A stretch of 64,000 bases of DNA, taken from assembly GCF_009811555.1 (NCBI RefSeq), contig NZ_BLIN01000003.1:620001-684000 (forward strand), in the 5' to 3' direction. Origin of the DNA: Streptomyces caniferus (GTDB taxonomy: Bacteria > Actinomycetota > Actinomycetes > Streptomycetales > Streptomycetaceae). Both the position numbers and the translations under genes were made by a program. Under the pieces are notes generated by a model that saw nothing but the letters and a program-made list of their open reading frames with translations, was not told the DNA's origin and made no database searches. Positions within the stretch are counted from its first letter, which is position 1. The number at the start of each line of letters is the position of its first letter. Positions 49,090-64,000 of this stretch are shown here, in pieces.

Positions 49090-50070
49090 CTATGCGGACA
49101 TCCCCAGCAGGAGCACCCCGGCGCCGACCAATGCGACACCGCCCCAGGCTGCTAGGCCCAGGTGTTCGCCGACCACCAGCACGCTGAGCACGGCAGCGAC
49201 CACCGGCTCGACGAGGCTCAGGGACGTGGCCGTGCTGGCGGAGACCCTGGACAGGCCGATGCCGAAGAGCACATAGGCCAACGACATGGGCACCACTGCG
49301 AGGTATGCCGAGACCACCAGGCCGCTTGCTGACTGGAACAGGGGGCCGCCGGTGAGCACGAGGACCGGCAGCAGCAGCACTGCGCCGCCGCCGAAGATGA
49401 GCCCCATGACCGGGCGGGAAGCGGCTCCCTGGCGCATCAACCGGCCGGCGGCGTACGAGTAGCCGGCGTACGTGGCTCCCGCGACCAGTCCGAGTGCCGT
49501 CCCACCCGCCACCGCGGCCAGGCTCTGCGTTTGGTCGCCCGCACCGTGATGGCCGTTGACCAGAAACACGACTCCGATGGCCGACACCGCAGTGGCGGCG
49601 GCCCATCTGGCGTTGAGCCGGGAACCGTCCAGTACGCGCTCGATCAGGACCGCGAAGACGGGCGAGGATCCGATGGACACCACCGTGCCGATCGCCACGC
49701 CCGCGATGGCCATCGACGAGTAGAAGGCCAGGGGATAGATCGCGACGCAGAGCGCGCCCGCGAGGGCGGTGAGGAGAGCGCGGCGACCGGCGCGGAGCAG
49801 GGGAAGGACCGATCGGCCCGCCAGGGCGAGGAGGATCAGACCGCCGCAGCCCATGGTGACCGCACCGATGGCCAAGGGTGAGGCGGCAGTGGGGGCGAAG
49901 TGTGCGGCCGTGCCGGTGGTGCCCCACGTGAGGGCGGCGATGAGTACGGGGAGGGGGCCCCGCCGGAAGGAGCGCCGGCGTGAGGCGGGGGCGGGCAGGC
50001 TGCCGGGAAGCTCCGTGAGGCCGGCCGACGGCCCGCTCACGGGCGTCGCACTTCCTTGGGTGGTGGACAT
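49090..50070 (-). CDS. EamA/DMT-family exporter
   Basis: This 326-residue protein has ten predicted membrane helices in two EamA repeats (first helix LPVLIALTWGTTGTAAHFAP-like; second repeat AAVAGGTALGLVAGATYAGYSY). A Pro/Ser-rich cytoplasmic N-terminus of about 35 residues precedes them. DMT transporters of this type export amino acids or small metabolites. The ATG at 50070 shares its A with the TGA of the upstream aminotransferase gene (TGATG), so the two are coupled. As part of the putative NRPS cluster it may export the product or an amino-acid intermediate (inference). Confidence 0.87.
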   Translation of the reverse strand: MSTTQGSATPVSGPSAGLTELPGSLPAPASRRRSFRRGPLPVLIAALTWGTTGTAAHFAPTAASPLAIGAVTMGCGGLILLALAGRSVLPLLRAGRRALLTALAGALCVAIYPLAFYSSMAIAGVAIGTVVSIGSSPVFAVLIERVLDGSRLNARWAAATAVSAIGVVFLVNGHHGAGDQTQSLAAVAGGTALGLVAGATYAGYSYAAGRLMRQGAASRPVMGLIFGGGAVLLLPVLVLTGGPLFQSASGLVVSAYLAVVPMSLAYVLFGIGLSRVSASTATSLSLVEPVVAAVLSVLVVGEHLGLAAWGGVALVGAGVLLLGMSA

Positions 50071-51248
50071 CAGCGGCCCAGGTTCCGCAGGCGCCGGACG
50101 GCCTCATCCAGGGTGCCGCGCCGCTTGCAGAAGGCGAAACGGACGAACGGTGCGCCCTCGGTGCTGTCGTAGAAGACCGAGTTGGGGATCGCGACCACAC
50201 CGCTGCGTTCGGGGAGGGAACGGCAGAAAGCCGGTCCGTCCTCGCACTGGGGGACACCGGCAGCGGCGAGCGGGCGGATGTCGGCGGTGACGAAGTAGGT
50301 GCCGCGCGGCGGGAGGACGGTGAAGCCGGCTTCGCGGAGCCCGGTGACCATCAGGTCGCGCTTTCCGGCCAGTTCGTCGCGGAGCTCCTTGAAGTAGGTG
50401 TCGGGAAGCCGCAATGCCTCCGCGATGGCGTACTGGAAGGGCCCGGAGCTGACGTAGGTCAGAAACTGCTTCACGGAACGTACCTCCGCCACGAGCTCCG
50501 GCGTACCGGTCACCCAGCCGACCTTCCATCCCGTGAAGGAGAAGGTCTTCCCCGAGGAACTGATCGTCAGGGTTCGTTCGCGCATGCCGGGCAGGGTGGC
50601 GATGGGGAGGTGCTGCCGGTTGCCGTATACGAGGTGCTCGTAGACCTCATCGGAAATGACCAACAGGTCGTGCTCGCAGGCCAGTTCGGCGATGGCCGAT
50701 AGCTCGTCCCGGGCGAGGACTGTGCCGGTCGGGTTGTGCGGCGTGTTGAGCAGGATCACCTTGGTGTGGCGGGTGACCGCAGCGCGCAGTTCGTCGAGGT
50801 CCAGCGTGAAGCCGTCCGCGCCCGCGTGCAGTGTCACGGGTACCCGGGTGCCGCCGGCGAGGGCGATGCAGGCCGCGTACGAGTCGTAGTACGGCTCCAG
50901 GACGAGCACTTCGTCACCGGGTTCAACCAGGGCCAGGAGGGCGGCGGCGAGGGCTTCGGTCGCTCCGGCCGTGACCAGTACCTCCGCCTCCGGGTCGTAG
51001 GACAGGCCGTACCAGTGGAACTGGTGGTGGGCGATCGACTGGCGTAACTCAGGGATTCCGGGCCCTGGGGGGTACTGGTTACCCCGGCCCTCGCGGATGG
51101 CGCACACGGCGGCCTCACGTATTTCCGGCGGCCCGTCGGTGTCGGGGAATCCCTGGCCGAGGTTGATCGCGTCGGTGGCGGCGGCGAGCGCGGACATCTC
51201 GGCGAAGATCGTGGTGTTGAAGGCGGACAGGCGGTGGTTCGGGCTCAT
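50070..51248 (-). CDS. PLP-dependent aminotransferase, probably methionine-salvage (MtnE-like) transaminase
   Basis: This 392-residue fold-type-I aminotransferase starts at ATG 51248. Motifs: INLGQGFPDTDGPPEIREAA, ATEALAAALLALVEPGDEVLVLEP, LLNTPHNPTGTVLARDEL, VISDEVYEHLVYG, and SSSGKTFSFTGWKVGWVTG with the PLP lysine. The pattern is that of the YbdL/KAT methionine and kynurenine aminotransferases. These convert 2-keto-4-methylthiobutyrate to methionine, the last step of methionine salvage. All other mtn genes lie 5-10 kb to the right and no other transaminase is present, so assignment as MtnE is reasonable but inferred. Two TGCAATGCATG boxes lie in its upstream region. Confidence 0.85.
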   Translation of the reverse strand: MSPNHRLSAFNTTIFAEMSALAAATDAINLGQGFPDTDGPPEIREAAVCAIREGRGNQYPPGPGIPELRQSIAHHQFHWYGLSYDPEAEVLVTAGATEALAAALLALVEPGDEVLVLEPYYDSYAACIALAGGTRVPVTLHAGADGFTLDLDELRAAVTRHTKVILLNTPHNPTGTVLARDELSAIAELACEHDLLVISDEVYEHLVYGNRQHLPIATLPGMRERTLTISSSGKTFSFTGWKVGWVTGTPELVAEVRSVKQFLTYVSSGPFQYAIAEALRLPDTYFKELRDELAGKRDLMVTGLREAGFTVLPPRGTYFVTADIRPLAAAGVPQCEDGPAFCRSLPERSGVVAIPNSVFYDSTEGAPFVRFAFCKRRGTLDEAVRRLRNLGR

Positions 51249-52451: not shown

Positions 52452-52492
52452 ATGCAACGTCCCTTGCATGGAAGTCGCTCGTGCACTATATG
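52452..52492 (+). promoter_or_regulatory. MFS/biosynthetic operon promoter with overlapping operator
   Basis: The perfect inverted repeat ATGCAA-N6-TTGCAT (52452-52469) ends in a -35 hexamer TTGCAT. After a 17-bp spacer comes the -10 TATATG (52487-52492). A dimer bound to the repeat would cover the -35. It lies 149 bp upstream of the MFS start codon. Confidence 0.65.
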
Positions 52493-52640
52493 TTGTTCGG
52501 CATGCCAGCATGACCCATGTCCGATCCGGCTCACCGGAAGCCCCAACTCCGTTGTCCGACATGCCATTTCGTCGGCCGGGAGCGACAGCTCCGCCGGTGT
52601 CACGGACTCTCAGTTCGAGAAAGGGCCTGTCATTTCTGAT

Positions 52641-54065
52641 GTGATCGCTCGACTTGAGCGCATCCCCCTCTGTCGCGCACATTACCGATTACTGGTGATG
52701 GGTGGACTGGGACTGACATTCGACGGGCTCGACGTGGCGTCACTCGCCTTCCTCCTGCCCAGTGCGAGTGCGGAGTGGCACCTCAGTTCCGCCCAGACCG
52801 GCCTGCTGGGCAGTTCAACCCTGATGGGCTACCTGGTGGGGGCCCTGCTGGCCGGAATCGTCGGTGACCGGGTGGGCCGTCGCCGGGTCATGATGTGGGC
52901 GCTGACCCTGTACTGCACCGCAACCCTCCTCGCCGCATTCGCCCCGAACTGGGAATTCTTCTTCGCCGCCCGGGTGCTCGCCGGAGTGGGCACCGGATCC
53001 GAATCCGTGATCATTCCGTCGTTCCTCTCGGAATTCGCTCCGGGCAGGTTGCGCGGACGGTTCGTGGGCGGACTCGCGGGTTTCTTCTCGTTCGGCTACG
53101 TCATGGCCGCCCTGCTGGGGCGCTTCGTCGTGCCGGCCTCCGCCGACGGCTGGCGGATCGTACAGGTCATCTGCACATTGCCGGTGCTGATGCTGCTGTG
53201 GTGGCGTCGTTCCGTCCCCGAGTCGCCGCGCTTCCTGGTCGCCGTCGGCCGCGAGGACGAGGCCCGCAGGGTGGTCGACGAACTGGAGGCACAGGCGGTG
53301 TCCGCGCTAGGCCGCGAACTGCCGCCCGTCCCGCCGAGCGCCCCCGCGCCCGTCCCGCCGCGCACGCCCCCACCCACCGTGTTGCAGGGGCTGGCGGCCC
53401 TGTGGCGGGGTGGACTCGCCCGCCGGACAGCTCCCTTGTGGCTGCTGTGGCTGGTCAACACCTTTGCCTTCTACGGGTTCTTCACGTTCGTGCCGACCCT
53501 GCTGGCGGAGGGCGGGCTGACGATCACCAAGAGCTTCAGCTACTCGATCGTCATCTACCTGGCACAGATACCGGGTTACTACGTGGCCGCGCTGCTCAAC
53601 GACGTGATGGACCGCAAGTGGACGATCGGAGTGTGCCTGGGCGGCGGGGCCGTCTCCGCCGCTCTGCTGTCCTCGTCCGGAATCTCCGCCCAGGTCATGG
53701 TCTACGGGGCCATGCTGTCGTTCTTCATGAACGGGGTGTACGCCTCCATCTACGCCTACACCCCCGAGGTGTACCCGACGGTGATCCGCGCACAGGGAGT
53801 GGGCGCGGCCTCGGCCTTCGGACGGGTGGGGGGCATCGCGGCTCCCCTCATCATCGGGTCCGCCTACCCCACGCTGGGCTTCACCGGCGTCTTCGTGATG
53901 ACCGCCGCCGCCCTGCTCGTCGGGGCTCTGGCGATCCTCGCCTTCGGTGTCTCGACCAAGGGGCGGACCCTGGAAGACATCGCCCTGCCGTCGGCCGCGC
54001 CGCCCGGTCCCGCACCGGACACGGCCGCGCATTTCACGCCGGCCGACGCGCCCCGCTCCCCCTGA
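52641..54065 (+). CDS. MFS transporter (sugar/aromatic-acid porter-like)
   Basis: This 474-residue, 12-helix transporter is taken to start at GTG 52641, which begins the family-typical IARLERIPLCRAHYRLLVMGG; the frame is open further upstream but without a start that fits. Signature loop GDRVGRRRVMMW lies between helices 2 and 3, PESPRFLVAVGREDEARRVV before the central loop, and YTPEVYPTVIRAQGVG between helices 10 and 11. These features match the SV2/AAHS-like porters. The central loop contains a Pro-rich insertion (PVPPSAPAPVPPRTPPP). As the first rightward gene from the RpiR-flanked promoter, it may export the cluster product or import a precursor. Confidence 0.88.
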   Translation: MIARLERIPLCRAHYRLLVMGGLGLTFDGLDVASLAFLLPSASAEWHLSSAQTGLLGSSTLMGYLVGALLAGIVGDRVGRRRVMMWALTLYCTATLLAAFAPNWEFFFAARVLAGVGTGSESVIIPSFLSEFAPGRLRGRFVGGLAGFFSFGYVMAALLGRFVVPASADGWRIVQVICTLPVLMLLWWRRSVPESPRFLVAVGREDEARRVVDELEAQAVSALGRELPPVPPSAPAPVPPRTPPPTVLQGLAALWRGGLARRTAPLWLLWLVNTFAFYGFFTFVPTLLAEGGLTITKSFSYSIVIYLAQIPGYYVAALLNDVMDRKWTIGVCLGGGAVSAALLSSSGISAQVMVYGAMLSFFMNGVYASIYAYTPEVYPTVIRAQGVGAASAFGRVGGIAAPLIIGSAYPTLGFTGVFVMTAAALLVGALAILAFGVSTKGRTLEDIALPSAAPPGPAPDTAAHFTPADAPRSP

Positions 54066-54135: not shown

Positions 54136-55386
54136 ATGCCCGTGCAGAGCACGCCCCGCACCTGGCTGTTGACCAACGCCACCGTACTCGACCCCGAGTC
54201 CGGCGACCTGACCCCCGACCGACGCATCCTCGTCGTGGACGGCACCATCGCCGAGGTGGGGGGCAAGGAAACCACCCACCGCGAGGCCCCCGTCGTCGAT
54301 CTGCGCGGCAGCGTCGTGCTGCCCGGACTGATCGACGCCCATGTACACGTCGCGGCGGCCGAGGGGGACCTCGCGGCGCTGCCGGGGCTCTCCCCGTCGT
54401 ACGCGGCGCTGCACGCGGCCCGTGCCCTGGAAACCATGCTGTACCGGGGCTTCACCACCGTGCGCGACTGCGGGGGTGCCGACTTCGGCATCGCGCAGGC
54501 ACAGCATGCGGGGCTGCTCACCGGATCCCAGCTGCGGTTCGGCGGCAAGGCGCTGTCCCAGACCGGCGGTCACGGCGACGTCCGGCACCGGGGCGACGAC
54601 TCCCCCGATCCGGGCTACTGCTGCCCCGGCTTCGGCCGGGTTTGCGACGGCGTCAGCCAGTGCCGGGCCGCGGCTCGTGACGAGCTCCGCAAGGGGGCCG
54701 ACCACCTGAAGATAGTCATCAGCGGCGGCGTCACCTCACCCACTGACCGCATCGACAGCACGCAGTTCTCCATCGAGGAGATCACCGCGGTCGTCGAGGA
54801 GGCCACCGCCGCCAACCGGTACGTCGCCGCGCACGCCTACACACCGCGCGCCATCGAACGCGGACTGCGCTGCGGCGTCCGGTCGATCGAGCACGGGAAC
54901 TTCCTCGACGACGCCACCTCGCGGCTCTTCAACGAGACCGGTAGCTACCTCGTGCCGACGCTGGTGACGTACTCGGCGCTGGCCGATGTGGAACGCGCCA
55001 AGTCCGGGCCGGGCAACCGGAACGGCAAGGTCTTCGAGGTGCTGGACGCCTCGCTCCAGGGGCTGGAGACCGCGTACCGCAACGGGGTGCAGATCGCCTT
55101 CGGGACCGACCTCCTCGGCGCGATGCAGCGCCACCAGCTCACCGAGTTCCGGCTGCGCGCGGAGGTGGTGAAGCCCCTCGACATCATCCGCTCCGCCACC
55201 TCCGTCGCGGCGCGGCTGCTGCGGGCCGAGGACACCCTCGGCCGGGTGGCCCCCGGAGCCCGTGCAGACCTCCTCGCTGTGGACGGCAACCCAGTGGAGG
55301 ACATCGGGATCCTGACCGCCCCCGAGCAGCACCACCGACTGCTGATGCTCTGCGGAGCGCTTGTCAAGCGTCCCTCGTGGACGTAG
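54136..55386 (+). CDS. Metal-dependent amidohydrolase (prolidase/imidazolonepropionase-like)
   Basis: This 416-residue protein starts at ATG 54136 with AGGAGGG upstream. Amidohydrolase motifs: VVLPGLIDAHVHVAAAEGD (HxH), LKIVISGGVTSPTD (carboxylated-lysine strand), VAAHAYTPRAIERGLRCGVRSIEHGN (metal histidines) and IAFGTDLLGAMQRHQLTEF (catalytic Asp). It belongs to the group that includes bacterial Xaa-Pro dipeptidases and imidazolonepropionases. An extra Cys-rich stretch (PGYCCPGFGRVCDGVSQCR) sits mid-protein. In the biosynthetic region it may process or detoxify a peptide-bond or lactam intermediate (inference). The SAM-binding protein gene begins 32 bp later. Confidence 0.87.
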   Translation: MPVQSTPRTWLLTNATVLDPESGDLTPDRRILVVDGTIAEVGGKETTHREAPVVDLRGSVVLPGLIDAHVHVAAAEGDLAALPGLSPSYAALHAARALETMLYRGFTTVRDCGGADFGIAQAQHAGLLTGSQLRFGGKALSQTGGHGDVRHRGDDSPDPGYCCPGFGRVCDGVSQCRAAARDELRKGADHLKIVISGGVTSPTDRIDSTQFSIEEITAVVEEATAANRYVAAHAYTPRAIERGLRCGVRSIEHGNFLDDATSRLFNETGSYLVPTLVTYSALADVERAKSGPGNRNGKVFEVLDASLQGLETAYRNGVQIAFGTDLLGAMQRHQLTEFRLRAEVVKPLDIIRSATSVAARLLRAEDTLGRVAPGARADLLAVDGNPVEDIGILTAPEQHHRLLMLCGALVKRPSWT

Positions 55387-55418
55387 CGGTTCCCACGCCT
55401 GTCAAGAAGAACCAGCTC

Positions 55419-56168
55419 ATGCCAAGGGAGAACAGATTGCGTACCGGCGAACTTCGCACCCAACCTGCAGGCGAGACAGCGAGCAGCGAGGAGTTCTACA
55501 GCGCAAGAGGAGCCGCCGCGATCATGCGGGCGGCCCACTTCCCCGACGAAGTCCTGTTCTTCCTGCAGATGGAGAGCCTGGTCACGCTCGGCGCCGCCGC
55601 CCGGTACGGCTGTGATGCCCTGGTGGAGTTCGGCTGTTACGACGGCCGGGCGCTGGAGGTCGCCCGCGCCGCGGGCGTCGGCTACTTAGGGGTCGACGTC
55701 AACGGGCGCGCCATCGCCGCTCTGCGGCGGCGGATCAACGACGAAGCCCTGGAGGGGAAGGCCGAAACCCTGATCGGCAACGTCCTCAAGCCGGAGACCT
55801 GGTCGCACCAGCTGTCGGGCCCCCATCCCCTCTACCTCCTGCCGTTCAACCTGATCGGCAACTTCCCGGAGCCTGAGCAGGTGCTGCACAGTGTGCGGTC
55901 GGTGGGTGGTACGGCGGTGATCTCCGTGTTCAACGAAGCCCCCTGGACCACCGAGGTGCGCCGGGAGTACTACGCGGCCTGCGGTATCGAGATGCTGGAG
56001 CAGGACGAGGGTTCGCACGGCGGGGTGCTGTTCCGCGGCGCCGACGGGTTCCGGTCCCAGTCCTTCAGCACCGACGGCATGTCCGCGCTCCTGCGGGCCT
56101 GTGGGGCCCGGGTACTGGAGGAGACGGCCAACCGGTACGGGCGTTGCCTCACCGTGCGCTTCCCGTGA
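55419..56168 (+). CDS. Class I SAM-binding methyltransferase-like protein, copy 1
   Basis: This 249-residue protein is taken to start at ATG 55419; GTG 55377, inside the preceding gene, is an alternative. Motif I (LVEFGCYDGRALEVARAAGVGYLGVDVNGRAI) shows the SAM-binding GxxxG loop and acidic ribose-binding residue. The motif IV region reads LLPFNLIGNFPEPEQVL instead of an N/DPPY. It is a close paralogue of the protein at 62875-63606, sharing IMRAAHFPD, FLQMESLV, CYDGRALEVAR, YLGVDVNGRAI and GGVLFRGADGF. It sits directly before metK and the MTA-salvage genes. That context suggests a SAM-consuming step releasing MTA rather than a plain methyl transfer (inference). Confidence 0.8.
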   Translation: MPRENRLRTGELRTQPAGETASSEEFYSARGAAAIMRAAHFPDEVLFFLQMESLVTLGAAARYGCDALVEFGCYDGRALEVARAAGVGYLGVDVNGRAIAALRRRINDEALEGKAETLIGNVLKPETWSHQLSGPHPLYLLPFNLIGNFPEPEQVLHSVRSVGGTAVISVFNEAPWTTEVRREYYAACGIEMLEQDEGSHGGVLFRGADGFRSQSFSTDGMSALLRACGARVLEETANRYGRCLTVRFP

Positions 56169-56237
56169 ACACGCCTGCCGCTTTCCCCTGCGCCGGTTCG
56201 CTCAGCGTCTTCCCGTTGTCACGCTTTTGGAGAACCC

Positions 56238-57479
56238 ATGACTCGCCGTCTGTTCACGTCGGAATCGGTGACCGAAGGTCACCCGGACAAGATCGCTGAC
56301 CAGATCAGCGACACCGTGCTGGACGCACTGCTGAAGGAGGACCCGGCCTCCCGGGTCGCGGTGGAGACGCTGATCACCACCGGCATGGTGCACGTGGCCG
56401 GGGAGGTCTCCACCACGGCGTACGCCGACATCGCGGCGTTGGTGCGCGAGAAGGTCCTGGAGATCGGTTACGACAGCTCCGCGAAGGGCTTCGACGGCGC
56501 GTCCTGCGGCATCTCGGTGTCCCTCGGCGCCCAGTCCACGGACATCGCCCAAGGGGTTGACTCCTCGTACGAGGTCCGGGGCGCGGCGTCGGCCGCGGGC
56601 GTCGGGAACGATGCACTGGACCAGCAGGGAGCGGGCGACCAGGGCCTGATGTTCGGCTACGCCTGTGACGAGACGCCGGAACTCATGCCGCTGCCCATCA
56701 CGTTGGCGCACCGGCTGTCCCGCCGGCTGGCGCAGGTGCGCAAGGACGGGACGCTGCCCTACCTGCGACCGGACGGCAAGACGCAGGTCACCATCGAGTA
56801 CGACGGTGACCGGCCGGTGCGGCTGGACACCGTCGTCGTCTCCTCCCAGCACGCGCCGGAGGTGGGCCAGGACGCCCTCGCCGAGGACGTGCTCCTGTCG
56901 GTCGTCCGGCCCGAGCTGACCACTCTGCGGGACCAAGGCGTCGAGTGGGACACCGAGGGCCACCGGCTGCTCGTCAATCCCACCGGGAGGTTCGAGATCG
57001 GCGGTCCCATGGGAGACGCCGGACTGACCGGCCGGAAGATCATCATCGATACCTATGGCGGAATGGCCCGGCACGGCGGCGGTGCCTTCTCCGGCAAGGA
57101 CCCGTCCAAGGTGGACCGCAGCGCCGCGTACGCGATGCGCTGGGTCGCCAAGAACGTAGTGGCCGCGGGGCTTGCGACGCGCTGTGAGGTCCAGGTCGCC
57201 TACGCCATCGGGAAGGCCGAGCCGGTCGGGCTGTTCGTCGAGACCTTCGGCACCGAGAAGTTCGGCGCGGACCGGATCGCGCGAGCCGTCGGCGAGGTCT
57301 TCGACCTGCGGCCGGCCGCCATCATCCGGGACCTGGACCTGCTGCGTCCGATCTACGCGCAGACCGCCGCGTACGGCCATTTCGGCCGCGACCTGCCGGA
57401 CTTCACCTGGGAGCGCACCGACCGCGTCGAGGCACTGCGGCGGGCCGTAGGGGCCCAGGCCGGGGAGGGGAACGCGTGA
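56238..57479 (+). CDS. metK: S-adenosylmethionine synthetase (cluster-specific copy)
   Basis: This 413-residue enzyme starts at ATG 56238 after TTGGAG. MetK signatures are complete: [20 protein letters not shown] at the N-terminus, the ATP-site [16 protein letters not shown], and the P-loop-like [19 protein letters not shown]. It makes SAM from methionine and ATP. Streptomyces already have one essential metK elsewhere, usually near the bldD/pyr region (general knowledge). A second copy here points to heavy local SAM demand. Its stop overlaps the start of the MtnA-Apt gene (GTGA), so the two are translated together. Confidence 0.95.
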
Positions 57480-59041
57480 AGACCTCACTGCACTGGGACG
57501 GCGAGGCGATCGTCGCCGTCGATCAGCGCGTACTGCCGCGCGAGTACCGTCTGTTGCGCATCACGTCGGTAGCCGAACTCATCGGCGCCATCCAGTCCCT
57601 GGCCATCCGGGGAGCGCCGGCGATCGGCCTCGCCGGTGCGCTGGGCGTGGCCTTATCCGCGCACCTTCACCGAGCTGCGGGTGAGACCGGCGCGGCAGCG
57701 GTGGAGGCCGACGCGGCGCGCCTGGCGCAGGCGCGCCCGACGGCGGTGAACCTCGCGTGGGGCGTCCGGCGGGCCCTCGGCCGGCTCGCCGAGGGGCCCG
57801 AGGCCGTACTGGCCGAGGCGACGGCGATGTTGGCGGAGGATGCCGCGGTCAACGGCGCGGCGGCCCGGCGGGCGGCGGATCTGGTGCGGTCGCTCACCCC
57901 CGACCGCCCGTTGCGCCTGCTCACCCACTGCAACACCGGCCGGCTCGCCACCGCCGCCGTGGGAACGGCACTCGGCACCATCCTCGAACTGGCCGAACGC
58001 GGCTGTGTGGCGGAGGTCCTGGTCGACGAGACCCGTCCGCTACTCCAAGGGGCCCGGCTGACGGCCTGGGAGCTGGGCGAGGCCGCGGTCCCCTACCGGA
58101 TATGCGTCGATTCCGCCGCGGCGGCCGCCATGGCCCAGGGGCTGGTGGACTGCGTCCTGGTGGGGGCGGACCGGATCGCGGACAACGGCGACACGGCGAA
58201 CAAGATCGGCACCTATACCCTCGCCGTCGCCGCCGCGCACCACGGCATTCCCTTCCTCGTCGTCGCGCCCGAGTCGACCTGGGACCGCACGCTGCCCGAC
58301 GGATCCGGGATCGTCATCGAGGAACGCGATCCCGCGGAGGTCACCCACTACGCGGGGACGGCCGCGGCGCCCGTCGACGCGGGCGTCTACAACCCGGCGT
58401 TCGACGTCACTCCCGCCCGTCTGATCACAGCGATCGTGTCGGAGCGGCGGACGGTGTCCGGCGGACGTGCGGCGGAACGCGGCACGTCGGCCGACACCGT
58501 GGTCGACGCGTCGCCGTCAGACCGGATCGCGGCCCTGCTGACCTCGTTCCCGGACTGCCCGGAGCCGGGGGTCGTCTTCCGCGACCTCGCCGGGGTGTAT
58601 GCCGAGCCGGGGCTGCTGGCCCAGCTCGCCGGTCACGTCACGCGGCACCTCGGCGCCGGCTTCGACCGGATCCTCGCGGTGGAGTCCCGTGGGTTCGTGC
58701 TCGGCTCGGCGCTGGCCGTCCTCGCGGGCGTCCCGCTCACGCTGGCCCGTAAGCCGGGGAAGCTGCCCGGCCCGGTGTATGAGGCCGCCTACGACCTGGA
58801 GTACGGCTCCGACCGGCTGGAGCTGCAGAAGGGGGCGATCGCGCCCGGCGAGCGGGTGCTGTGCGTCGATGACGTGCTGGCCACCGGGGGCACCCTGTCC
58901 GCCGCGGCTGCCCTGGTGGAGGCCGGCGGTGCGGAAGTCGCGGGGCTGGCCGTGGTCGTGGCGCTGGCCGGGCTCGGCGGTCGCGAGCGGCTCTCCGGAC
59001 ACCCGCTGCTCGCGCTCCACGAAGTAACCGACGCGAAGTGA
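57476..59041 (+). CDS. mtnA-apt: Fusion: methylthioribose-1-phosphate isomerase (MtnA) + adenine phosphoribosyltransferase (Apt)
   Basis: One 521-residue reading frame holds two complete enzymes. Residues 1 to about 335 are Mtn[37 protein letters not shown] with the catalytic Cys152, and [20 protein letters not shown] with the catalytic Asp232. After a linker of some 15 residues ([15 protein letters not shown]), residues 349-521 are Apt. These contain [60 protein letters not shown] and the PRPP loop [13 protein letters not shown] (461-473). MtnP splits MTA into exactly the two substrates of this protein: methylthioribose-1-phosphate for MtnA and adenine for Apt. No frameshift joins them: codon character is continuous through the linker. 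The GTG start overlaps the metK stop. Confidence 0.93.
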
Positions 59042-59090
59042 CCGACGCACCACACGGACCCATTGACGCAAACGACGACAAGGAACAGGC

Positions 59091-59903
59091 ATGACGGGCC
59101 AGACACAGCAGGCCGAGATCGGCGTCATCGGAGGCAGCGGCTTCTACGAGCTGCTCACCGATGCCCGGCACGTGGACGTCGACACGCCCTACGGCGCCCC
59201 GTCGCACGCCCCGGCGACGGGCGTCGTCGGCGGCCGGAGGGTCGCCTTCCTGCCCCGGCACGGTGCGGGACACCGCTTCCCACCGCACATGATCAACTAC
59301 CGGGCGAACCTGTGGGCGCTGCGTTCCCTGGGAGTGCGCCAGGTTCTGGCCCCCTGCGCGGTCGGCTCCCTCCGCCCGGACCTCGGTCCGGGCCGCATCG
59401 TGCTGCCTGACCAGGTCGTGGACCGCACCAGCGGACGGGTGCAGACGTACTACGACACGGGGGCGGTGCACGTGCCGTTCGCGGACCCGTACTGCCAGGA
59501 GGGCCGGCAATCGGTGCTCAAGGCGGCCTCCTCCGCCGGGACCGAGGCGCACGACGGCGGAACGATGGTGGTGGTGGAGGGCCCACGGTTCTCGTCCCGT
59601 GCCGAGTCGCAGTGGTACGCCCGGGCGGGCTGGTCGCTGGTCAACATGACTGGTCAGCCGGAGGCAGCACTGGCCCGCGAAATCGGGCTCTGCTATACCG
59701 CCGTGGCGCTGGTGACCGATCACGACGCGGGCATCGAGTCGGGTGAGGGTGTCGACCAGGAGAGTGTCTTCGAGGTGTTCCAGGAGAACATCGAGCGCTT
59801 GCGGTCCGTCATTCTCGGGGCGGTCGAGCTGCTCCCTGAGCAGCGCACCTGCCGATGCGCCACGGCCCTGGACGGGCTGCCGCTGCCTTTCGAACTCCCC
59901 TGA
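59091..59903 (+). CDS. mtnP: S-methyl-5'-thioadenosine phosphorylase
   Basis: This 270-residue PNP-superfamily enzyme starts at ATG 59091. [52 protein letters not shown], the phosphate/purine segment [16 protein letters not shown], and [19 protein letters not shown] are diagnostic, with [12 protein letters not shown] near the C-terminus. It cleaves MTA with phosphate to adenine and 5-methylthioribose-1-phosphate. Because this route makes MTR-1-P directly, no MtnN nucleosidase or MtnK kinase is needed, and none is present. It lies 49 bp after the MtnA-Apt gene. Confidence 0.94.
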
Positions 59904-59962
59904 CCCGCACCCCACTTGCACCGGATGCCGCCCTCCGCTCACTGCCTTTCGCTGGAGTCCTC

Positions 59963-60559
59963 ATGACGCTGCTGACCACCTGGCCGGAGTCCGGCCCGCA
60001 GACCGTCGTCCGCCGTACCGCCGACCCCGCCGAGATCGCCGCCGCCCTCGCCCCACTCGGGGTGCGCTACGAGCAGTGGCCGGTCCGTGCCGACGTTCCG
60101 GCGGACGCCGGCGGTGACACCGTCTTGACCGCCTACCGCACGGAGATCGACCGGCTGAACTCAGAGGAGGGCTTCTCCAGCGTCGACGTCGTCGCCCTGC
60201 ACCCCGGTGACGCCCCGGACTGGCCGCAGCGGGCCCGTGCCGCCCGGGAGAAGTTCCTCACCGAGCACACCCACGATGACGACGACGAAGTGCGCTTCTT
60301 CGTCTCGGGGGCGGGCATCTTCTATCTGCACGTGGCGGGCGAAGTGCACGCCGTGTATTGCGAGAAGGGCGATCTGCTGGGCGTCCCCAAGGGGACGACG
60401 CACTGGTTCGACATGGGCACCGAACCGTCCTTCACCGCGATCCGCTTCTTCCACGAGGAGGACGGCTGGATCGGCAACTTCACCGGCTCCGGCATCGCCT
60501 CCCGCTTCCCCGGCTTCGACGACATCCACGCCGGCCATGTCCAGGCGCAGACCGCATGA
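59963..60559 (+). CDS. mtnD: Acireductone dioxygenase
   Basis: This 198-residue cupin starts at ATG 59963 with TGGAG upstream. The metal ligands are the cupin HxH...E set in [19 protein letters not shown] and the later histidine in [12 protein letters not shown], followed by [14 protein letters not shown]. It oxidises the acireductone 1,2-dihydroxy-3-keto-5-methylthiopentene with O2. The iron form gives 2-keto-4-methylthiobutyrate and formate, whereas the nickel form is off-pathway. Its stop overlaps the mtnC start by 4 bp (ATGA). Confidence 0.95.
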
Positions 60560-61311
60560 GCGTCGAGTTCGAAGCCGACGCCGTGGTGCTGGACATCGAG
60601 GGCACCACGAGCGCCACCGGATTCGTGACGGAGGTGCTGTACCCGTACTCGCGGGAGCGGTTGGGCCGGCTGCTCGTCGAGCGGGGCGACGAGTCGGACG
60701 TGCGCCGTGCGACGGACCAGGTGCGCGAACTGCTCGGTGAACCGGAGGCGGACGCGGCGCGCGTCGAGCAGGCGCTGACGGGCTGGTTGGACGAGGACCG
60801 CAAGGCCACACCGCTCAAGACCCTGCAAGGCATCCTGTGGTCGGAGGGTTTCGCCCGTGGCGAGTTGGTCTCGCACTTCTATGACGACGTGGTGCCGGTC
60901 CTCCGCCGCTGGCGGGCCGCGGGTCTGCGCCAGTACGTGTACTCGTCGGGTTCGGTGGCGGCCCAGCGCGCCTGGTTCGCGCACAGCCCGAACGGAGACC
61001 TGCTCCCGCTGATGGACGGGTTCTTCGACACCGAGAACGCCGGTCCCAAGCAGTCCGCCGACGCGTACCGGACGATCACCGCGGCGATCGCGATCCGGCC
61101 CGGCCGGACCCTGTTCCTGTCCGACCGGCCGGCCGAACTGGACGCCGCCCGTACCGCGGGCTGGTACACGGCCGGCGTCCGGCGGCCGGGGGAGCCCTAC
61201 TACGACCACGGCACCGGTGGCCATCCCGAAGTCCGGTCGTTCGACCACATCACGGTCGGCAGCTCAGTCGGCCAGGCCCGGCCGCTGCCGGAAACGTCCC
61301 GAGGAAGGTGA
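60556..61311 (+). CDS. mtnC: Enolase-phosphatase E1
   Basis: This 251-residue HAD-superfamily enzyme starts at ATG 60556. The N-terminal motif is [20 protein letters not shown] (nucleophile Asp in DIEGT). [18 protein letters not shown] carries HAD motif [22 protein letters not shown] and [19 protein letters not shown] carry motifs III and IV; the Arg in SDRPAEL replaces the more usual Asn/Val. It enolises and dephosphorylates the MtnB product, giving the acireductone used by MtnD. It overlaps mtnD by 4 bp and ends at the mtnB start region. Confidence 0.94.
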
Positions 61312-61319
61312 AGAGCGCA

Positions 61320-61979
61320 GTGACCGCAAAACGAGCCGGAACCCCCCACAATCTCAGCCTGGAGCAGGCCGGAGCCGTGCTCGCCGAAGAGGCCGCCCGC
61401 TTCGCGTCGTTCGGCTGGATGCGCGGGACGTCGGGCAACCTGTCCCTCGTCGTCGACCGCGAGCCGATGCGCCTCGCGGTCACCGCCAGCGGCCTGGACA
61501 AGGGCGAACTGACCGCTGCGGACGTGGTGCTGGTGGACCAAGCCGGCGCCGCGGTCGGCGCTGGTCGGCCCTCCGCCGAAGCCGCGTTACATGCCCGGGT
61601 GGCTCGGGTCACCGGTGCCGGTGCCATCGTCCACGTCCACACCCTGGCCTCGGTCGCCGTTGGGCGGCTGCGGCCCGGGGGGATCGTCTTCCGCAACCTG
61701 GAGATGCTGAAGGGCATCGGCCGCTCGGCGCACGACGAGGAGGTCGTCCTCCCGGTCATCGAGAACAGCCAGGACATGACTGTGCTCGGCGACCGGTGGG
61801 AGGCCGCCCACGACCCCGGCGTGCCGGCCGTCCTCGTCGCGGGGCACGGGTTGTACGTGTGGGGTGCCGACGCCCGCGCGGCACGTCACCACACGGAAAC
61901 CGTGGAGTGGCTGCTGGAACTCGAACTGACCGGGTACCAGGGCGCTGCTCCGCATCCGGGAAGCACTGCGGCGCGGTGA
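61320..61979 (+). CDS. mtnB: Methylthioribulose-1-phosphate dehydratase
   Basis: This roughly 219-residue class II aldolase-fold enzyme is taken to start at GTG 61320. The GTG at 61308 overlaps the mtnC stop but leaves no space for the GAGGAAG ribosome site. Zinc-site motifs: GRPSAEAALHARV (Glu base), IVHVHTLASVAVG (HxH) and AARHHTETVEWLLE (third His), with FGWMRGTSGNLSLVV at the substrate phosphate loop. It dehydrates 5-methylthioribulose-1-phosphate to the diketone used by MtnC. It is the last mtn gene of the block. Confidence 0.94.
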   Translation: MTAKRAGTPHNLSLEQAGAVLAEEAARFASFGWMRGTSGNLSLVVDREPMRLAVTASGLDKGELTAADVVLVDQAGAAVGAGRPSAEAALHARVARVTGAGAIVHVHTLASVAVGRLRPGGIVFRNLEMLKGIGRSAHDEEVVLPVIENSQDMTVLGDRWEAAHDPGVPAVLVAGHGLYVWGADARAARHHTETVEWLLELELTGYQGAAPHPGSTAAR

Positions 61980-62051
61980 CCGCCGCCGGTCCGGCGCCGG
62001 TTCCGCAGCGGCCGCCCGTTGCCGTCGTACCGGAGCGGGTTTCACCAGGGC

Positions 62052-62096
62052 GGGCTCCACTGGAGAGGTGCGGCCGGAGAGGGCTCCACCGGAGAG
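62052..62096. repeat. Short direct repeat upstream of the stress-protein gene
   Basis: GGGCTCCACTGGAGAG (62052-62067) recurs as GGGCTCCACCGGAGAG (62081-62096), 15 of 16 identical, 29 bp apart. Each copy can also fold on itself (CTCCA-N-TGGAG). It could be a local duplication or a binding site. Confidence 0.5.
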
Positions 62097-62132
62097 TTTT
62101 GCGCGAAAGGCTTCCGCGAGGAGGACGAGATC

Positions 62133-62651
62133 GTGGCATGGACAACCGGTACCCGGCGGTTCGTGGTCGGGGTGAGCGGTTCGCTGGGCAGTCTCGCGGC
62201 GCTCCACCGCGCGGTGGGCGAGGTCCGGCACGGCGGCGCCGAACTGCTGGTGGTCCTGGCTTGGGAAGCACCCGGTGGCGCCCCTGCCTGCCATCGCGCG
62301 CCCTGCCCGCCGCTCCTCGCCGCCGTCCACCGGAGGGCGGAGGAACGGCTCCGCGCCGCCTTGGACGCGGCCTTCGTGGGCGACCTGGTCCCGTACCGCG
62401 CCACAACGGTGCGGGGCCCGGCGGGCGAGGTACTGGTGGCCGCCGCCGACCATCCGGGTGACGTCCTGGTGGTCGGCGTGGCCCGGGGCGGACGCTGGCG
62501 CCGGTTGGTGTGGCCGTCGGTGGCGCGCTACTGCGTGTCCCACGCCACCTGCCCGGTGTTGACCGTGCCGCCCTCGCCGCTCCAACACGACCTCTCGGTG
62601 CTGCGCCGCCGCATCGCCATGCGACTTCCCCTTCCGCGAATCGGCCGCTGA
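62133..62651 (+). CDS. Universal stress protein family member
   Basis: This 172-residue protein starts at GTG 62133, placed by GAGGAGGACGAG. The UspA-like fold is indicated by FVVGVSGSLGSLAALHRAVGE at the first strand, LLVVLAWEAPGG, and the ATP-loop region VLVVGVARGGRWRRLVWPSV followed by HATCPVLTVPP. The usual G-x2-G-x9-G-S/T nucleotide loop is modified (GVARGGRWRRLVWPSVARYC), so ATP binding is uncertain. It follows mtnB in the same direction. A link to the pathway is not evident. Confidence 0.75.
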   Translation: MAWTTGTRRFVVGVSGSLGSLAALHRAVGEVRHGGAELLVVLAWEAPGGAPACHRAPCPPLLAAVHRRAEERLRAALDAAFVGDLVPYRATTVRGPAGEVLVAAADHPGDVLVVGVARGGRWRRLVWPSVARYCVSHATCPVLTVPPSPLQHDLSVLRRRIAMRLPLPRIGR

Positions 62652-62712
62652 CACCGGTCAGCCATCCGAACAGGCCGCGCGAAATGGCCCATGACAAGCA
62701 TCACATCACTGA

Positions 62713-62738
62713 ATGCGATATCGCTGTTACAGTCGCAT
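62713..62738. promoter_or_regulatory. Inverted repeats in the AT-richer gap before the second SAM-binding gene
   Basis: GCGATATCGC (62715-62724) is a perfect 10-bp palindrome, and ATGCGA (62713-62718) with TCGCAT (62733-62738) forms a second inverted repeat. They lie in a 223-bp gap with clearly lower GC than the rest of the region. The gap also has a possible -10 TATAAAT at 62817-62823. A new transcript may start here. Confidence 0.45.
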
Positions 62739-62874
62739 GCCGATGATGGGGCTGCTGCATCCGGATGGTTTTACAGGTCACTCTTCCGTCGCCAGAAGCA
62801 GAAAACTGAACGACCGTATAAATAGCGTCGCGAGGGAACGGCTGCCCGTATCCCCCTACCTTCCTGGAGGACTG

Positions 62875-63606
62875 ATGGCTCCCACTGAATTAGGTCCTGT
62901 CGCCACGCACCCGGCTTCCGAAAGCGAGAGTTTCTACCGCGAACGAGGCGCTTTTGCGATCATGCGGGCTGCGCACTTCCCGGACGACCTGCTCTCGTTC
63001 CTCCAAATGGAGTCCCTGGTTGCCGGGGAAAGCGTGGCCCGGTACGGCTGTGACGCCATCGTCGAACTCGGCTGTTACGACGGCCGGGCCCTGGAAGTGG
63101 CCAGGTTCGCCGGTGTTCGCTATCTCGGCGTCGATGTGAACGGCCGGGCCATCGACGCGCTGCGCCGCCGCATCGCGGACGAAGGGGTGGCGGAGCAGGC
63201 GGCCGCGATCCAGGGGAACGCCCTGCACAGCGAGGAATGGCAGCCCCGACTGCCGGGTCAACACCCCCTTCAGCTCGTTCCGTTCAACCTCCTGGGGAAC
63301 TTCCTGGAGCCGGCCGCCTTGCTGCGTGCCATGCGTGCGGTGGGTGGCACCGCGGTGGTCTCCGTCTTCAATGCCCAACGCGCCACCACCGAGGTGCGTC
63401 GGGCGTATTACTCAGCCTGCGGTATCGACTACCTGACGGAGGAGCCCGGCCCGTACGGCGGCGTCCTGTTCCGCGGCGCCGACGGATTCCAATCGCAGTC
63501 CTTCAGCGGTGAGGGCTTTCATGCGCTCATGGCGGAGGCGGGCATCCGGATCGTCGACGAATCAGCGAACCGCTTCGGGCGGTACGTCACGGTGCAATTC
63601 ACCTGA
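62875..63606 (+). CDS. Class I SAM-binding methyltransferase-like protein, copy 2
   Basis: This 243-residue protein starts at ATG 62875 after TGGAGGA. It is collinear over its whole length with the protein at 55419-56168: same ERGA.AIMRAAHFPD opening, motif I VELGCYDGRALEVARFAGVRYLGVDVNGRAI, LVPFNLLGNFLEPAALL in the motif IV place, GTAVVSVFNAQRATTEVRRAYY, and GGVLFRGADGFQSQSF. Both keep all putative SAM-binding residues, so neither looks like a decaying copy. The two copies bracket the metK/mtn block, and this one immediately precedes the NRPS. One may make an amino acid from SAM for loading onto the NRPS and the other may act on a tailoring step (inference). Confidence 0.8.
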   Translation: MAPTELGPVATHPASESESFYRERGAFAIMRAAHFPDDLLSFLQMESLVAGESVARYGCDAIVELGCYDGRALEVARFAGVRYLGVDVNGRAIDALRRRIADEGVAEQAAAIQGNALHSEEWQPRLPGQHPLQLVPFNLLGNFLEPAALLRAMRAVGGTAVVSVFNAQRATTEVRRAYYSACGIDYLTEEPGPYGGVLFRGADGFQSQSFSGEGFHALMAEAGIRIVDESANRFGRYVTVQFT

Positions 63607-63694
63607 CCGCGGGCGCGATCGTCAGTGAAACTCGCTATACCCGCCCCGCTCCCCCTTTGTCCCGTTTCCCCATCCCGCACCAGGAGGACGCAAG

Positions 63695-64000
63695 TTGCCG
63701 AGCGCTCGCAGTCGTCAGGTCAGGGCATCCGCAGCACAGGCAGAAATGTGGCTCGGGCAGCAGCTGGATACGACCGGAATCGGCTTCAACATCGCCCATT
63801 ACCTGACGCTTTATGGTCCCGTTGATATTCCGTTGCTGACCCGGGCAATCAAACAGGGATACGCCGAGGCCGAAACCTTTTGGGCGACGTTCCAGGAAAT
63901 CGGAACCACCGTCCACCGCAGCATCCGCGCCGTACCGGAATGGGACCTGCCGGTCCTGGACCTGAGCGACCACGACGACCCGACCGGCGCGGCCGAGGAA
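63695..64000 (+). CDS. Non-ribosomal peptide synthetase, N-terminal condensation domain (partial)
   Basis: The first 102 codons of a gene that runs off the right edge. It starts at TTG 63695 with AGGAGG upstream. The sequence begins a condensation domain: core motif C1 is recognised in RASAAQAEMWLGQQLDTTG, followed by FNIAHYLTLYGPVDIPLLTRAI and the NRPS-typical TVHRSIRAVPEWDLPVLDLS. The HHxxxDG motif would lie beyond the window. An N-terminal C domain means the protein either extends a chain begun elsewhere or is an acylating starter. It sets the biosynthetic context for the SAM-recycling genes. Confidence 0.88.
   Translation, partial: MPSARSRQVRASAAQAEMWLGQQLDTTGIGFNIAHYLTLYGPVDIPLLTRAIKQGYAEAETFWATFQEIGTTVHRSIRAVPEWDLPVLDLSDHDDPTGAAEE

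Follow-up and report, generated by a model that had tools for sequence, protein, structure and literature searches.

A 64,000-nucleotide stretch of Streptomyces caniferus DNA (hereafter the window; C3:620001-684000 in a 9.15-Mb genome, GC ~71%) carries towards its right end two homologues of azetidine-2-carboxylate (AZE) synthases, AZE1 and AZE2, and between them a gene set for the return of methylthioadenosine (MTA) to S-adenosylmethionine (SAM). Judged from the sequence, this operon is with high probability an AZE factory equipped with its own SAM regeneration cycle. This reading is carried by features that are observed, namely the gene identities, the conserved residues of the two synthase homologues, the operon-like layout, the single-copy status of mtnD and mtnC and the recurrent pairing of mtn cassettes with AZE synthases in other genomes.

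The AZE synthase homologues and the recycling cassette

In a search against solved structures, AzeJ (8RYD-8RYF), 29ST and VioH (8RYG) were the sole strong matches of AZE1 and AZE2, with homology to AzeJ spanning ~220 residues and thus the whole domain in both proteins. Tyr18, the GxxxG motif, Asp85, Phe134, Leu136, Asn139, Arg172, Tyr175, Tyr176 and Ser203 of AzeJ are conserved in AZE1 as well as in AZE2, the roles of the residues in contact with SAM or AZE being those given in the AzeJ study (PMC11794875). Enzymes of this type split SAM into AZE and MTA (PMC11794875), and AZE1 and AZE2 are expected to share this chemistry. An earlier note on this DNA had proposed SAM as a donor of a three- or four-carbon unit and had named AZE first among the candidates; the identification of the flanking proteins as AzeJ homologues with conserved SAM-contacting residues supports this. 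The predicted structure of AZE1 has a pLDDT (predicted local distance difference test) of 86.5. The open reading frame of AZE1 overlaps the preceding amidohydrolase gene by 10 bases and its true start may be located further in than 55377, while AZE2 probably starts at 62875, where GGAGG is found ahead of the ATG. With 63% identity, AZE1 and AZE2 are not sisters in the tree, in which AZE2 clusters with P0010, a protein of the type found in genome G791; a recent duplication as the origin of the pair was rejected on the basis of this placement. As a separate observation, the 364-amino-acid AZE synthase homologue P0202 is listed with the carrier-protein domain PF00550, a possible synthase-carrier fusion.

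Gene identities in the run were assigned by Pfam and NCBIfam profile matches against curated cut-offs. The succession metK, mtnA-apt, mtnP, mtnD, mtnC and mtnB on the forward strand, as read in the earlier note, is present in exactly this order, with MtnP, MtnA, MtnB, MtnC, MtnD and MetK all above cut-off; the sequence motifs which we take to be typical of these enzymes are found in each of the proteins. The two SAM-binding proteins described as enclosing the cassette do flank it on both sides, although a universal stress protein (Usp) gene (62019-62651) separates mtnB from the second. From the amidohydrolase gene (54136) through a nonribosomal peptide synthetase (NRPS) gene to a gene for an ApbA-like reductase, all genes are located on one strand with intergenic gaps of -10 to +88 bases, and an O-methyltransferase gene follows 105 bases past the reductase gene. 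A scan for promoters and terminators gave no signal above chance. In the entire genome, PF03079 (mtnD) and TIGR01691 (mtnC) are matched nowhere else.

In the sequence of reactions that we infer from these genes, with respect to enzyme activity, coupling and direction of flux alike, AZE1 and AZE2 would cyclise SAM to AZE and MTA, MtnP would phosphorolyse MTA to adenine and methylthioribose-1-phosphate, and the fused Apt domain would convert the adenine into AMP. MtnA, MtnB, MtnC and MtnD would subsequently process the sugar phosphate to 2-keto-4-methylthiobutyrate and formate, from which the aminotransferase encoded at 50070, or its paralogue, would form methionine, to be returned to SAM by MetK. 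In net terms, the sulfur and the S-methyl group would act catalytically and the four-carbon chain of AZE would be replenished from the ribose of ATP, comparable to the plant methionine (Yang) cycle. AZE or a derivative would probably be consumed by the adjoining NRPS.

Table 1. Genes of the run and candidate members to its left, in window positions; paired numbers are profile score and curated cut-off in bits (PLP, pyridoxal phosphate; MFS, major facilitator superfamily)
Feature	Position	Strand	Basis
EamA-type amino-acid/amine exporter, possible member	49090..50070	-	TIGR00950 112 bits, below cut-off 230; putative role
PLP aminotransferase, MtnE candidate	50070..51248	-	PF00155; NF005855 617/553; NF006569 412/420
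MFS transporter, possible member	52452..54065	+	PF07690, PF00083; 70 bases ahead of amidohydrolase
Amidohydrolase	54136..55386	+	PF01979; nearest NCBIfam model Xaa-Pro dipeptidase NF051886, 235 bits, below cut-off 500
AZE synthase homologue 1 (AZE1)	55377..56168	+	AzeJ 8RYD E 1.9e-56; 29ST 5.6e-65; VioH 8RYG 3.6e-19
metK, SAM synthetase	56238..57479	+	TIGR01034 555/309
mtnA-apt fusion, methylthioribose-1-phosphate isomerase and adenine phosphoribosyltransferase	57476..59041	+	TIGR00512 374/279; apt part NF002636 172/125
mtnP, MTA phosphorylase	59091..59903	+	NF005876 443/306
mtnD, acireductone dioxygenase	59963..60559	+	PF03079 92/27; no NCBIfam match
mtnC, enolase-phosphatase	60556..61311	+	TIGR01691 224/128
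mtnB, methylthioribulose-1-phosphate dehydratase	61308..61979	+	TIGR03328 171/137
Universal stress protein (Usp)	62019..62651	+	PF00582
AZE synthase homologue 2 (AZE2)	62875..63606	+	AzeJ 8RYD E 1.3e-55; 29ST 1.8e-63
NRPS, 2061 aa, start inside window	63695..64000, ends C3:689880	+	Pfam domains

Recurrence of the pairing and mtn loci elsewhere

Among 392 Streptomyces genomes, 77 carry mtnD above the Pfam cut-off and five, including the source genome, an AZE synthase; a further AZE synthase was found neither in 60 automatically selected relatives nor among plasmid records. Examination of 23 distinct AZE synthase loci (18 from one set, together with G236, G376, G661, G791 and the window), with ~10 kb of flank read per side and less where contigs end (L132, L133, L138, L147, L148), identified an mtn cassette beside the synthase at four of them, in three gene orders: in addition to the window, these are L131 of K. 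phosalacinea, G661 and G791. This corresponds to 4 of the 12 loci in Streptomycetaceae and to 4 of 8 in a set of AZE synthase-positive genomes. The four loci count as three arrangements and not as four independent instances, since the clusters of L131 and G661 are related; the chance of such a neighbour within 10 kb is estimated at ~0.0004 per locus, given mtnD in ~20% of genomes. For genes outside the window, calls came from a simple gene caller, and labels such as arsR, ACR3, ArsM and KS (ketosynthase) were assigned by eye.

In G791, one strand carries in succession an AZE synthase, metK, mtnA, apt, mtnB, mtnD, mtnC and mtnP, with mtnA and apt as adjacent genes; a cupin gene and a gene for a MetG-like tRNA ligase come next, and a Usp gene and an aminotransferase gene divergent from the AZE synthase are located close by. 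The cassettes of L131 and G661, on the other hand, consist of an mtnA-mtnB fusion (PF01008 and PF00596), mtnD, mtnC and mtnP, with CsaA at the end. The earlier note had suggested a search of genomes for the block beside NRPS genes; what recurs is the AZE synthase/mtn pairing, and the proposal of a regeneration cycle of the cluster's own gains support from the metK/mtn set within one run with AZE synthases and from the same pairing in other gene orders. The embedding of the cassette in an NRPS cluster holds for the window, where the NRPS gene adjoins, but not for G791, which has the set with no NRPS seen within the 34 kb read. The partner of the cassette is thus the AZE synthase and not the NRPS. 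Independently of this, the class I tRNA ligase of G791 (PF09334; L186:4632-5993), 3' of the AZE/mtn operon, recalls the tRNA ligases that have been described to adjoin azeJ-like genes (PMC11794875), and might activate AZE without an NRPS.

A comparison of 86 AZE synthase proteins with 119 MtnA proteins (from 120 listed of 225) indicated nine contigs besides that of the window as common to both sets, judged by identical size, where 0.14 were expected; seven of the nine are shorter than 60 kb, four pairs have an identical organism label, and nearness of the two genes was established for neither of the two long contigs.

The wider distribution of mtn genes was assessed at 76 of the 80 mtnD loci outside the source genome, selected by the PF03079 cut-off (left out were G032, G066, G056 and the second locus of G255). 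They comprise 46 ordinary mtnD-C-B loci (type H), 19 compact cassettes (type B; mtnB, D, C) and 11 others. In the ~20 kb examined at each type-H locus, a convergent mtnA is present at 43 of the 46 and mtnP at one, and metK and apt are absent from all. Among the type-B cassettes, additional flank of which was examined for nine, mtnA is present in 17 and mtnP in 15, with metK (80-82% identity), apt and an aminotransferase homologue each within 20 kb in three. The cassette of the window is a mosaic of the two, as its mtnDCB resemble type H (65-83% identity) and its mtnA-apt and mtnP resemble type B.

Equally, type-B cassettes are found close to other candidate MTA-forming enzymes. An ArsL-like radical SAM gene is located 6-12 kb from the cassette at an arsenic locus in 8 of the 19 (L058, L059, L061, L062, L063, L065, L085, L092), the label being based on a Pfam radical-SAM match in one member, a CX3CX2C motif seen by eye and the arsenic setting. 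In two of the 19, an AdoMet (SAM) decarboxylase is encoded beside the cassette, by PF02675 in L055 and by 91% identity in L071. Both of these cassettes have metK and an aminotransferase gene, with a Rieske-type oxygenase and methyltransferases recognised by eye nearby; their product is perhaps polyamine-derived. For the remaining nine (L056, L069, L087, L097, L109, L111, L114, L117, L120), no MTA-forming partner was recognised in the flank read, and NRPS-type A domains occur near L069, L117 and L120; these nine cassettes are leads to unrecognised SAM-cleaving enzymes.

Taken more broadly, the chances seem evenly balanced that a 'bacterial Yang cycle' module has been assembled again and again in Actinobacteria, tied to the MTA-forming enzyme of the respective cluster, be it an AZE synthase, ArsL, AdoMet decarboxylase or unrecognised others, with AZE carbon drawn from ATP ribose, the sulfur acting catalytically and the mtn cassette as a general marker of SAM-cleaving chemistry. 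Such a module would explain how bacteria afford pathways that cost one methionine per product molecule and would provide a genome-mining marker for clusters with SAM as carbon donor. Furthermore, ready-made regeneration operons for AZE and other SAM-derived building blocks would become available, and the parallel to the plant Yang cycle would be testable in a single operon.

The NRPS, the product and alternative readings

For the use of AZE and the product, which we infer equally, the NRPS itself offers the Pfam domain order C-A-[MT]-T-C-T (condensation, adenylation, methyltransferase and thiolation domains) with one A domain and without a Pfam match to a thioesterase (TE). By eye, the A domain has the code DILQLGVIWK; this is presumably glycine-like and would, together with the methyltransferase domain, give sarcosine. 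A clipibicyclene/azetidomonamide-type product was rejected on the basis of this single A domain and missing TE, as compared to the C-A-T-C-A-T-TE order of the L131 NRPS, and a bonnevillamide-type product was also rejected, as a heptamodular NRPS has been proposed there (PMC5532637).

Three kb beyond the NRPS, C3:692954-701974 contains an opposed MFS gene, a cyclodipeptide synthase (CDPS), five 2-oxoglutarate (2OG) oxygenases and one P450; the MFS, CDPS, P450 and four 2OG genes were called by Pfam and the fifth 2OG gene (699157) by eye. As the genes follow the bcm order given in PMC5930311, this region is assigned by gene content and order to a separate bicyclomycin-type cluster. The earlier note had counted a right flank devoid of further biosynthetic genes as contrary evidence; the flank does hold such genes, but from C3:692954 onwards they belong to this other cluster, and the 2OG oxygenases, the P450 and the cyclodipeptide synthase were rejected as modifiers of AZE. 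Still further to the right, C3:706364-713854 has, by eye, genes (among them a hydrolase and a PgsB-like gene) that also flank the NRPS/mtn locus of G137 (L117, L179), so that the two clusters possibly share an insertion neighbourhood.

Several observations weigh against an AZE operon with its own SAM supply. In the synthases, the second-shell Thr193 of AzeJ is replaced by Val in both AZE1 and AZE2. In the genome, metK, mtnA, apt, mtnP and the aminotransferase have further copies; the metK of the run is the third of three, a second mtnP is located at C5:3672848 (63% identity) and a paralogue of the 50070 aminotransferase at C5:4198834 (73% identity). The MtnE-like aminotransferase that the earlier note had placed to the left of the cassette is a PLP aminotransferase by NF005855, a general model for these enzymes, but falls narrowly short of the methionine-aminotransferase model NF006569 (412 against 420 bits). 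Homologues with 49-55% identity are found within the mtn operons L055, L071 and L114, and the aminotransferase of G791 is 71% identical; a closer relationship to the G791 enzyme than to the housekeeping copy was considered and dropped, as pairwise identities of 70-72% do not discriminate. In the NRPS, an AZE-specific A domain was not recognised, the sole A domain being the glycine-like one. Finally, 19 of the 23 AZE loci are without an mtn cassette in the flank read, some of it limited by contig ends, and at L135, where the NRPS shares 68% identity with its L131 counterpart, CsaA comes after the AZE synthase and mtn genes are missing; the ends of L132 and L133 show the same. Loci of the L135 type indicate that the cassette is optional for AZE clusters.

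That some AZE loci do without the cassette would also suit a cassette whose main task is not the resupply of SAM but the clearance of MTA, which inhibits SAM enzymes. MTA has been described as an inhibitory metabolite (PMC5893883), and the MtnP step would serve both purposes; clearance, however, requires MtnP alone, of which the genome holds another copy, whereas the presence of mtnABCD, apt and metK in addition, repeated in G791, is in keeping with full regeneration. We regard clearance as the main function as unlikely. Less probable still, and to be considered doubtful, is the formation by AZE1, AZE2 or both of a SAM derivative other than AZE itself, for instance a methylated AZE or an adduct with an aminocarboxypropyl group. 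The sequence divergence of the two proteins and the position of AZE2 beside P0010 suggest that their roles may differ, and VioH of the same family has been reported to possess low AZE activity alone (PMC11794875), but all AzeJ residues in contact with SAM or AZE are conserved in both, and since the by-product would still be MTA, the recycling reading would survive. It is very improbable that the cassette is an ordinary methionine salvage operon for general metabolism which came by chance to adjoin an AZE/NRPS cluster, for although the mtnDCB genes resemble those of the ordinary locus and mtnD and mtnC, as the sole copies found, could serve the whole cell too, the cassette forms a tight run with the two AZE synthases that bracket it, its type-H mtnDCB are joined to mtnA-apt, mtnP and metK, and differently built cassettes at other AZE loci and shared contigs above chance exist. 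The earlier note had named as evidence to the contrary the occurrence of the same mtn block as the sole methionine salvage operon of related genomes that lack any NRPS. In part this applies, as ordinary mtnD-C-B loci away from AZE synthases make up 46 of the 76 mtnD loci, but no metK or apt was seen in the ~20 kb examined at each of them. An AZE operon that regenerates its own SAM remains the reading that we prefer.

Comparison with known systems

AzeJ, VioH and Cac6, the AZE synthases of the azetidomonamide, vioprolide and clipibicyclene clusters, belong to the same enzyme family as AZE1 and AZE2, whereas the window differs from those clusters by two synthases that bracket a full MTA-to-SAM cassette. 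The terms 'salvage', 'recycl' and 'metK' were not found in the main text of the AzeJ study (PMC11794875). Equally, no AZE cluster with an mtn cassette was found described in the open-licence literature searched, in agreement with the earlier statement that no described cluster of such kind was known; the components are known, but their repeated joining appears to be undescribed in that literature.

Bacterial methionine salvage operons contain the same enzymes, and the mtnDCB genes of the window are near to the common Streptomyces locus; in contrast to ordinary operons, the window adds metK, mtnA-apt, mtnP and AZE synthases in one run, an arrangement not seen in any of the 46 ordinary loci. In arsinothricin-type clusters, SAM provides ArsL with its 3-amino-3-carboxypropyl group (PMC8552651), and mtn cassettes are located 6-12 kb from ArsL-like genes at eight Streptomyces loci; the chemistry is a different one, and neither metK nor apt was seen in these cassettes. 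Furthermore, phosphorolysis and isomerisation of the salvage type have been described within secondary metabolism in the fluorometabolite pathway of Streptomyces (PMC6302742), where these steps build the product, whereas in the window they would regenerate the substrate.

Among known systems, the methionine (Yang) cycle of plants, which supplies mugineic acids, comes closest. Under iron deficiency in rice, the use of SAM for mugineic acid is paired with SAM synthetase, methylthioribose-1-phosphate isomerase, dehydrase-enolase-phosphatase, acireductone dioxygenase, an aminotransferase and adenine phosphoribosyltransferase (PMC4883707), and the window carries the same set of functions. While the plant cycle is encoded by scattered, co-regulated genes and employs a nucleosidase and a kinase, the window combines these functions in a single operon with a phosphorylase.

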